Source of the DNA: Methylotenera sp. RIFCSPLOWO2_02_FULL_45_14
GTDB taxonomy: Bacteria > Pseudomonadota > Gammaproteobacteria > Burkholderiales > Methylophilaceae
Reading direction: 5' to 3'
Length of the DNA stretch: 39,797 nucleotides
NCBI GenBank assembly: GCA_001803395.1
Contig: MHBU01000013.1
Location: 19,290-59,086 of the forward strand
Part shown: piece by piece, positions 12,339 to 39,765 of the stretch
Position numbering within the stretch: the first letter of the stretch is position 1
How the letters are laid out: each line of letters begins with the position of its first letter
The notes under the pieces: generated by a model
Seen by the model: the letters and a program-made list of their open reading frames with translations, nothing else
Databases searched by the model: none
What the model was told of the DNA's origin: nothing
Program-made: the position numbers and the translations under genes

Positions 12339-12527
12339 CTGTCCACGCAATACACCAAACACACGAACAGGTTCAAGCTGTTGGTTTTTTTCGTGACTTT
12401 AGCTGTACTTGCCAGTTTACTGGCTTATTAGTAATACTTGCCTGCAAAGCGGGCTTGGTAGTACTTATCAGTTTATTCTGAGTACAGCTTATCAGTTTTT
12501 TCTGGTTTGTGTATTTTGTGGACAATA
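12339..12527. repeat. Structured intergenic element with GTCCACG-type inverted ends (E1)
   Basis: Outer arms at about 12339-12360 and 12503-12527 are imperfect inverted repeats sharing CTGTCCACGCAATACACC-like sequence (about 19 of 23 positions match). Inside, AGCTGTAC (12401-12408) pairs with GTACAGCT (12482-12489), and two perfect or near-perfect hairpins follow: GCCAG-TTTA-CTGGC (12411-12424) and GCCTGC-AAA-GCGGGC (12440-12454). It fills most of the 243-nt gap between the AddA-like gene and yqaA. It shares its arm core with the elements at 22280 and 32408. Confidence 0.6.
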
Positions 12528-22220: not shown

Positions 22221-22279
22221 GAGTAGTCCAAATAGTTTTTTTCTAATAAATAATATTTTCAACCTAAAACCCACTATCA

Positions 22280-22410
22280 GTCCACGAAACACACCAAAAA
22301 CACGAAATAAAACAAGAAACTCAACTTAAACTTAAGTTGGTGATTAGTAATGCTATGTACGTTTGTGATGTTTTATGAACTTGTTCGTGTTTTTGGTGTG
22401 TTTCGTGGGC
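22280..22410. repeat. Inverted-repeat element with 27-bp arms (E2)
   Basis: Arms at 22280-22306 and 22384-22410 are inverted copies matching at 26 of 27 positions; each contains CCACGAAACACACC. The stem can continue through ATAAAAC (22307-22313) and GTTTTAT (22370-22376) across a 7-nt bulge, and the core holds a perfect CAACTTAA/TTAAGTTG palindrome (22322-22339). It lies 18 nt after the yhdP stop and 60 nt before the nitrilase start, inside a likely operon. It has no coding capacity. Confidence 0.8.
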
Positions 22411-22427
22411 AAATATTTTTTTAAGGT

Positions 22428-26414: not shown

Positions 26415-26553
26415 TTTACTGCAATATCAATCAATACGATTGATATTCAAGGCATTGCATATGTAAAACTGGGTAAATTTAGATAATTAACGGTTGTAAT
26501 AACTAAACAGATGTAAAGACTACTCTCTGAATCATTTAGAATAGCGGCTTTGG

Positions 26554-26609
26554 CGTATGAATAATGAGCTTTAGCTCATATATTCTACGGACAAGCCAAG
26601 CACTGGCTT
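26554..26609 (+). repeat. Two-hairpin repeat, copy A
   Basis: Hairpin 1 runs from 26554 to 26589. CGTA pairs with TACG, then after a bulged T GAATA pairs with TATTC, and ATGAGC pairs with GCTCAT across a TTTA loop with one bulged A. Hairpin 2 is AAGCCA-AGCAC-TGGCTT (26593-26609). The same fold recurs at 36496 and 38979, with compensated base changes. It lies between the divergent yhdP and ABC-F genes, about 45 nt before the ABC-F start. Confidence 0.75.
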
Positions 26610-28558: not shown

Positions 28559-28632
28559 CCCGTTCCCTGAGCTTGTCGAAGGGTGCGTGTGTTCCCTTCG
28601 ACAAGCTCAGGGAATGGGTACTCAGGGAACGG
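28559..28632. repeat. REP-like palindrome with GTCGAAGGG core
   Basis: Two 25-nt arms (28559-28583 and 28594-28618) are inverted copies matching at 24 of 25 positions around a 10-nt loop, each containing CCCTGAGCTTGTCGAAGGG. A third partial copy, CTCAGGGAACGG, follows at 28621-28632. It begins 3 nt after the ABC-F stop and could protect or end that transcript, although no T run follows. This core is a widespread dispersed bacterial repeat. Confidence 0.85.
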
Positions 28633-36449: not shown

Positions 36450-36593
36450 TTAGACCCTAAAAACTCAAAATTCCGTCATGCTTCGCTACGCTTCACACAT
36501 GAATAATCTGCTTTAGCAGATATATTCTGTGGGGATGCCAAGCACTGGTACAGAATGACGGGAATAGGTATTTTTTATTAAAAAATGGTCTAA
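36450..36593 (+). repeat. Two-hairpin repeat copy B inside nested inverted repeats
   Basis: Core copy B spans 36496-36550. In hairpin 1 CACA pairs with TGTG, GAATA with TATTC, and ATCTGC with GCAGAT across TTTA; hairpin 2 is TGCCA-AGCAC-TGGTA. A middle inverted repeat, TTCCGTCAT (36471-36479) and ATGACGG (36555-36561), surrounds it. The outermost pair is TTAGACC (36450-36456) and GGTCTAA (36587-36593). Compared with copy A, four stem pairs differ and all remain paired. Confidence 0.75.
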
Positions 36594-38937: not shown

Positions 38938-39053
38938 GTAGGAGCGACGCCCCGTCGCGATTGCAACATTGCTTCGCGAGCCAGTATTTGGCTTCCCCAC
39001 ATAATATATGCGCTAAAGCGCATTATTCTGAGTGAACGGGGCGTCGCTCCTAC
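38938..39053 (-). repeat. Two-hairpin repeat copy C inside an 18-bp inverted repeat
   Basis: Core copy C (38979-39030, minus strand) has hairpin 1 with ATGCGC and GCGCAT around TTTA, plus the bulged A, and hairpin 2 AGCCA-AATAC-TGGCT. The outer arms GTAGGAGCGACGCCCCGT (38938-38955) and ACGGGGCGTCGCTCCTAC (39036-39053) are a perfect 18-bp inverted repeat. The left arm with its neighbours also forms a GCGACG-CCC-CGTCGC hairpin (38944-38958), in the style of GTAGGAGCG REP repeats known from Pseudomonas. It lies between the kinase gene and mazF; the rest of 38871-39166 holds nothing recognisable. Confidence 0.8.
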
Positions 39054-39166: not shown

Positions 39167-39514
39167 TTAATCAAACAAGATAGCTTCAAGTTTCCCGGCG
39201 ACTTCTTCCATGATGAAATCAGGGGTCAGTTCTTTGAATTCAGCTTTTCTAACACGCCAATCTAGTGACTTTAATTGATGGCAATGCACTCCACCTTGAG
39301 TTTCAGTGCCTGAACCCATGAGTGTTACCACTGTGCCAACAGAGCGCGCATTAGCAGCGGCACCTTGCGAAATAGGGCATATCATCGCTAATCCACTACT
39401 GTTGAAAATCTTATCACTGATCACTAAGCCATAATGCTTGCCCAGCATTTCTTTACCTGAAGCGGGATCAAAAGTTAGGTGAATAATATCCCCGCGTTTT
39501 GGTGTGTACGCCAT
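39167..39514 (-). CDS. mazF: MazF/PemK-type endoribonuclease toxin
   Basis: This 115-aa toxin would cleave mRNA at short sequence motifs when free of its antitoxin. The PemK/MazF fold is shown by YTPKRGDIIHLTFDPASGKE (N-terminal strand with the G-D-I motif), KHYGLVISDK, MICPISQGAAANA and VHCHQLKSLDWRVRKAEF. The ATG at 39514 overlaps the antitoxin stop (TGATG), giving tight coupling and antitoxin-first translation. A TTG one codon upstream is less likely. It resembles the ChpB/MazF group. Confidence 0.92.
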   Translation of the reverse strand: MAYTPKRGDIIHLTFDPASGKEMLGKHYGLVISDKIFNSSGLAMICPISQGAAANARSVGTVVTLMGSGTETQGGVHCHQLKSLDWRVRKAEFKELTPDFIMEEVAGKLEAILFD

Positions 39515-39765
39515 CAAGCAGCTTCCAGTCCGGCAGATTGCATTTCATCCCAGCCTTCAACACGTGGTAGTCCATTGGGCATTTCTGCCATTAAATCTTC
39601 AATCCTGTAGTGTTTTCTGTTTTGCTTTGGTGCGGTGATCGTCATGTGCTCCCCATCCAACATCAGATTAACTTTTGAGCCTTCGTGAAGCTTATTCTGC
39701 TCTATGAACGCCTTTGGCACAGTCATCACCAATGAACCACCTGCTCGTCTTAATGATTGCAACAT
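39514..39765 (-). CDS. mazE: MazE-type AbrB-fold antitoxin
   Basis: This 83-aa antitoxin and autoregulator has an N-terminal AbrB/MazE swapped-hairpin DNA-binding domain (LQSLRRAGGSLVMTVPKAFI, GSKVNLMLDGEHMTITAP) and an acidic, flexible toxin-binding tail (YRIEDLMAEMPNGLP). I chose the ATG at 39765 because AAGGAG (39773-39778 on the minus strand) lies 7 nt upstream; a TTG seven codons earlier would include that site. Its promoter lies past the right edge of the window, so operator palindromes cannot be assessed. Confidence 0.88.
   Translation of the reverse strand: MLQSLRRAGGSLVMTVPKAFIEQNKLHEGSKVNLMLDGEHMTITAPKQNRKHYRIEDLMAEMPNGLPRVEGWDEMQSAGLEAA

Follow-up and report, generated by a model that had tools for sequence, protein, structure and literature searches.

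A double-hairpin mobile element of Methylotenera that prefers self-folding DNA as its target

The stretch of 39,797 nucleotides analysed here (the window), part of contig C13 in the 2.13-Mb genome of Methylotenera sp. RIFCSPLOWO2_02_FULL_45_14, carries three copies of a short dispersed repeat, and the question is what kind of element this is and how it spreads. One gene of the window shares 83-92% identity with its homologue in four named Methylotenera MAGs and less with that in three others, which points to Methylotenera as the most likely genus. A preliminary description noted that bases change in pairs between the copies, suggested a covariance model, a covariation test and a search for a RAYT gene, and considered the folded form to be selected, the repeat being perhaps REP/RAYT-mobilised, an RNA processing site or a protein-binding site. 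Direct reading of all three copies (Table 1) confirms this description of them, and further copies exist, since the pattern of the first hairpin, H1, matches 17 places in the genome and the reversed pattern none. Mobility and fold are evident from the data below; that the repeat is a miniature non-autonomous DNA element moved as single-stranded DNA by HUH/Y1 (TnpAREP-like) transposases is a reading to which we give about even chances, its Y1 step being contested and an enzyme of another kind being the main contender.

Conservation of a two-hairpin fold on a single strand

The element is 57-58 nt long and consists of two hairpins joined by a short linker, namely the bulged H1 of about 17 pairs and H2 of 5 bp. 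Among 40 aligned copies 96% of the pair cells are paired and double changes occur at 14 of the 22 pairs. On the strand as read, G-T wobbles furthermore outnumber A-C mismatches (35:2 and 91:7), which shows that one particular single strand is conserved, and the notion of a folded single strand under selection is thereby upheld. The fixed length and the two-hairpin fold are thus conserved on one strand. The H1 loop reads TTNA in 110 of 112 distinct elements, in part an effect of ascertainment as the search patterns contained TTTA, and TTNA is not universal, since a TTT loop is frequent among relatives in f15 genomes. The GTAG tag of the REP of a RAYT is absent: GTAG or GTGG is found directly 5' of H1 in 0 of 133 copies, GTAG occurs within 8 nt in 1, and the four bases preceding H2 are GACA, GGGA, GTGA, GGCA and similar. 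The right end of the element is likewise variable (GGTA, GGCT, GGTTG, GGTCT).

Table 1. Copies of the element in the window and the repeats that host them
Feature	Position	Strand	Remarks
Copy A, complete 58-nt element	26551..26608	+	H1 and linker 26551-26593, H2 26594-26608
Copy B, complete 58-nt element	36493..36550	+	H1 and linker 36493-36535, H2 36536-36550
Host palindrome of copy B, CGTC-type repeat CCGTCATGCT...CAGAATGACGG	36473..36561	+	split by the element
Copy C, 57-nt variant with TCACTCA start	38979..39035	-	H1 and linker 38994-39035, H2 38979-38993
Pair of inverted GTAG-type REPs (GTAGGAGCGACGCCCCGTCGCGA) hosting copy C	38938..39053	-	REPIN-like

Copy A has a YhdP-like gene on one side and an ABC-F gene on the other. 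Joining the flanks of copy B gives back an imperfect palindrome, and copy C interrupts one arm of its REP pair, the second arm being intact. A MazF/ChpB-like toxin gene (39167-39517, minus strand; 78.4 bits, under the curated cut-off of 129) adjoins copy C.

Insertion sites and target preference

In an alignment of seven genomes, outside which further genomes matching both flanks existed, the site of copy A is filled in G000 and G146 and empty in G144, G128, G113, G116 and G133, the bases at the junction being slightly different in the two groups (TAACC versus TGCC); L073 lies on the same contig as the G144 site and was counted once. A second pair of filled and empty sites is provided by a cluster at C13:60284-60391, close to the window but not within it, where an inner copy lies within the H2 loop of an outer one, and the syntenic place of G144 holds the outer copy with an empty H2 loop. 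Copies are also nested centrally within H1 loops of other copies, at GCTT/TAGC or GCTT/CAGC (the slash marks the junction; L067, L151, L170, L171, L180), and L208 and L209 are likewise nested in an H1 loop with different closing pairs. Five more sites were aligned with orthologues. Among them only L012 resembles an additional empty site, GTAGCCTCGATG being uninterrupted in G128, where the match covers the right flank only; the host stretch of L010 and L013 is absent from relatives, and L004 as well as two of the three L009 orthologues fail to align at the insertion point, the remaining one (G128) having a different palindrome there. No target duplication was seen at the joined own-genome and orthologous sites, and we conclude that insertion is precise, proceeds without target duplication and produces presence and absence between orthologous sites. 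As in IS200/IS605-type insertion, a motif lies 5' of the element, here as a strong preference.

The nature of the targets becomes apparent when the flanks are joined. Among the own-genome copies a palindrome is restored, as judged by eye, in 10 of 13 cases, namely GTAG-type REPs at L005 (copy C), L008 and L012, CGTC-type repeats at L004 (copy B), L009 and L010, and other hairpins at L002, L007, L015 and L017; none appears at L003 (copy A), L013 and L016. Of the 133 copies collected, 128 have at least 20 of the 22 pairs, and the 127 of these with distinct flanks give the insertion consensus C-T-T/Y-R, with C at -3 in 89, T at -2 in 102, T at -1 in 107, C or T at +1 in 107 and A or G at +2 in 105, the whole left trinucleotide CTT being found in 62. 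In 96 copies with unique flanks, folding across the junction gives -7.73 kcal/mol versus -5.72 +/- 0.22 for exchanged partners, a value reached in 0 of 100 shuffles. Junctions lie in tight loops in 60 of 127 cases versus 49.7 +/- 4.6 in exchanged-partner controls, which is a mild excess only, and the folding-energy test was therefore relied on. Applied to 21 relatives from other families, drawn from 29 loci outside the family after leaving out odd ends and duplicate contexts, this test is weak, with 6 of 200 shuffles equally low. The element thus prefers self-folding DNA, namely REP palindromes, CGTC-type repeats and, in its own copies, the loops of H1 and H2.

Host repeats of larger size are common to many copies, so that not every copy represents an independent insertion. 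An example is a MITE that we liken to Correia repeats, with ends like GGGCACTTCTATAAATACATT (L041, L054, L058, L106, L153, L175, L195-L197 and others), which in several genomes contains the element at one constant position, its H1 and H2 varying in sequence. Composites in which additional hairpin sequence precedes the element are repeated in G164 (L185-L188, L194), where they are closed by GCCCTG/CAGGGC, here the two closing sequences, and in G139 (L143-L149).

Distribution and relatives

At E 0.001 a covariance model (R1; 58 positions, 22 pairs) matches 72 of the 187 family genomes, spread over 8 of 24 genera, and gives at least 29 matches in the most copy-rich genomes, the best 13-29 candidates per genome being scored in these large searches, and in a sample of the order it matches 6 of 399 genomes, the own genome included. 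The weaker R1 matches have other H1 sequences on an unchanged plan, and 26 such sequences were used for a second model, R2. In its alignment 93.8% of the cells are paired, as compared to 69.9 in shuffles and at most 46.4% in slides, and 11 pairs show double changes, a number equalled in 19 of 500 shuffles; since the relatives come from a structure model, their pairing is not independent evidence. R2 matches 24 of the 399 order genomes, the own one included, and the other 23 belong to seven other families, six of these genomes having at least 8-14 matches each. Typical relatives read TCTCGCCGG...GCAGCTTTGCTGC...CCGGCGGGGA followed by H2, and some lie within CCCTCTCCCG/CAGGGAGAGGG palindromes. 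Defined by its architecture of two tandem hairpins on one strand and not by sequence, the element could form a class of its own within bacterial mobile DNA, present in several Burkholderiales families with very different H1 sequences, using the loops of other folded DNA (REPs, CGTC repeats and its own copies) as landing sites so that trees of nested hairpins would form, and served by an enzyme not assigned to it here; we hold this wider view tentatively, with slightly more doubt than belief.

An origin from phages or plasmids was rejected, as plasmid and phage collections contain no match for copy A and viral contigs, searched with exact patterns only, contain no exact match to one H1 pattern; more distant relatives may nevertheless occur in these collections. 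The core motifs of integron attC sites are absent from the element, and that assignment was dropped as well.

The moving enzyme and the competing explanations

The absence of target duplication, the specificity for a single strand, the bulged hairpins and the short 5' motif together fit HUH/Y1 transposases. The strand as read would fold when made single-stranded by replication, by repair or by extrusion of a cruciform, a TnpAREP/IS200-like HUH/Y1 enzyme would cut it at the two element ends, probably by reading the bulged hairpin with the TTNA loop, and the cut strand would then be joined into an exposed hairpin loop containing CTT. Copies would nest in copies because their own loops carry the target motif, and when host repeats multiply the element would be carried along. 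A role in protein binding was also suggested beforehand and may apply to the element as DNA; the transposase would count among the proteins bound.

The search for a RAYT gene was successful in that the genome encodes three Y1 transposases associated with REPs, one of them barely above the family cut-off (80.2 versus 80). At L019, upstream of one of these three RAYT genes, the preceding REP contains a relative whose H1 is different (TCACGCTTAATCTTGCCGCTTTAGTGG...). In G134 one Y1 gene is located between two inverted REPs, both of which contain the element. Across 52 genomes of the genus, 30 of which have a Y1 match (PF01797, which also counts IS200-type genes), copy number is correlated with Y1 count (rho 0.43, p 0.0016, without kinship correction and with the highest copy counts entered as 29, a lower bound); rho is 0.59 without three genomes, an exclusion chosen after seeing the data, and the median is 8.5 copies with Y1 versus 3 without. 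The loop is also suggestive, since T-T-N-A is reported from SELEX to be needed in the REP loop of a Marinomonas TnpAREP (PMC8266576), the same rule as for H1 here, where the search patterns contained TTTA. The earlier idea of REP/RAYT mobilisation therefore stands as far as mobility, the frequent location in REPs and the three Y1 genes are concerned, and falls short in that the element is no GTAG REP and that Y1 is missing in several copy-rich genomes.

These gaps speak for the same mobile double-hairpin element being moved by a non-Y1 enzyme, be it an HUH nuclease of a different type, a recombinase of the IS110 kind or an enzyme so far undescribed, which we regard as a genuine possibility although we would lean against it. 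No Y1 match was found in 22 of the 52 genus genomes, which yet have 1 to 19 copies and include G133 (19), G118 (10, 77% complete) and the single-contig G110 (5) and G116 (6), nor in 7 of 14 multi-copy genomes searched (G104, G164, G480, G514, G431, G181, G185), including the single-contig G104, 99% complete with 12 copies, and G164 with at least 29; G150, G153 and G155 on the other hand have Y1 genes but no copy. Lost or very divergent Y1 genes would, however, explain the gaps too. The lack of GTAG and the position of the junctions are furthermore unlike TnpAREP: published TnpAREPs are described as cutting C/T, and one of them CA as well (PMC8266576), and the junctions here follow CT or CTT (CTT/TAG, CTT/CAG, GCT/CAG), so that, judged from sequence, cleavage would not conform to the C/T rule. 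Within this group of enzymes, an IS110-type recombinase would leave a fixed core, and core recombination of this type was dropped because the right end varies. When 62 Y1 loci, some of them overlapping, were searched with R2, six gave a match at E <= 0.01, one of them with matches on both sides, but inside the flanking REPs, and six high-scoring IS200-like loci, a subset of the Y1 matches, revealed neither a copy nor an autonomous element. There is likewise no overall bias for a replication strand or the lagging-strand template, with 21 copies concordant and 25 discordant with local skew (p 0.66; counted by hand, leaving out L279, L285, L286 and L287 as ambiguous or weak); in G164 alone the count is 2 to 11, in the opposite direction, the copies being mostly against the GC-skew strand.

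That the element is instead a passive hairpin, spread only inside carrier REPs or MITEs without transposition of its own, is suggested by the longer flanks shared by many copies (the CATACGACTTTGCAAGTGCTT repeat, the Correia-like MITE around GCGTTCCGTGCGCCTT and the G164 and G139 composites). This notion, already weakened, is improbable in view of the location of copy A outside any recognisable REP and of its clean orthologous empty sites, and because nesting and identical end points in several unrelated repeat families require independent insertion. Selection as a structured RNA within transcripts, whether as a 3'-UTR processing site, a protein-binding site or a regulatory RNA, is less probable still and can almost be set aside: single-strand-specific covariation with G-T wobbles is what one expects of RNA, and of 65 intergenic copies 35 lie between convergent genes, but the remainder (12 '--', 8 '++', 10 divergent) show no sense preference (8 versus 12, p 0.50). 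These counts derive from 74 copies with enough flank (8 of them within a long ORF, 1 at an edge), with genes called by ORF length only and a few of the copies being orthologues. As the copies have no preferred orientation to neighbouring genes, the proposed RNA processing site found no support, and orientation together with orthologous presence and absence led us to reject an RNA regulatory element; self-nesting likewise speaks against RNA. Rfam yielded no match for the window at gathering scores, nor for the surroundings of copy A at E 5, and a known RNA family was rejected.

Whichever enzyme is responsible, the element is in kind a miniature hairpin mobile element like REPs, and it is distinct from them in its two tandem hairpins, its lack of GTAG and its use of loops, both its own and those of other hairpins, as insertion sites. 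With the GTAG REPs and REPINs moved by RAYTs (TnpAREP) it shares a short, non-autonomous, intergenic hairpin form in many copies and single-strand recognition, and RAYTs are present in the genome; unlike them, it combines two different hairpins, inserts after CT or CTT and also occurs in genomes without Y1 match. Non-autonomous IS200/IS605 derivatives (PATEs) likewise have subterminal hairpins, no target duplication and insertion beside a short motif, but here no autonomous partner with these ends was found at six Y1 loci, no replication-strand bias is seen and the target itself is often a hairpin. CGTC-tagged palindromic repeats, described as short palindromes without a dedicated transposase (PMC3733652), are insertion targets here (copy B), the element itself having no CGTC tag. 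REP palindromes are also targets of insertion sequences such as ISPpu9 (PMC8450116) and members of the IS110 family (PMC11208160), but these are full-size and have a transposase gene. Mitochondrial double-hairpin elements and GC clusters, reported to be miniature and to move, merge and shuffle (PMC4478555), are similar as two-hairpin or palindromic mobile miniatures, a likeness by architecture only, since they sit in organelle genomes. The titles and abstract openings of the open-licence literature searched, on which this comparison draws together with parts of PMC6006769, contain no description of the element.

TnpAREP is reported to process REPs in vitro, and the mechanisms of REP dissemination are described as poorly understood (PMC8266576). 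The present element leaves a clear record of exact ends, empty sites, nesting order and strand, and target choice and recognition rules can therefore be read from genomes, those without Y1 match offering a direct route to another enzyme. Hairpin loops as insertion targets can furthermore explain compound palindromes between bacterial genes. One rearranged copy (L001, G000:C1:74541) has its right part swapped for an inverted copy of its own left part and the host REP, which results in a long inverted repeat. The window also contains an inverted repeat CCCGTTCCCTGAGCTTGTCGAAGGG (28559-28618, arms 96% complementary) that resembles the repeat hosting the element at L007, L154 and L201, and another dispersed inverted repeat (CCACGAAACACACCAAAAACACGAA and kin) is found at 12340-12375, 22275-22306 and 22376-22415 with 86-91% complementarity.
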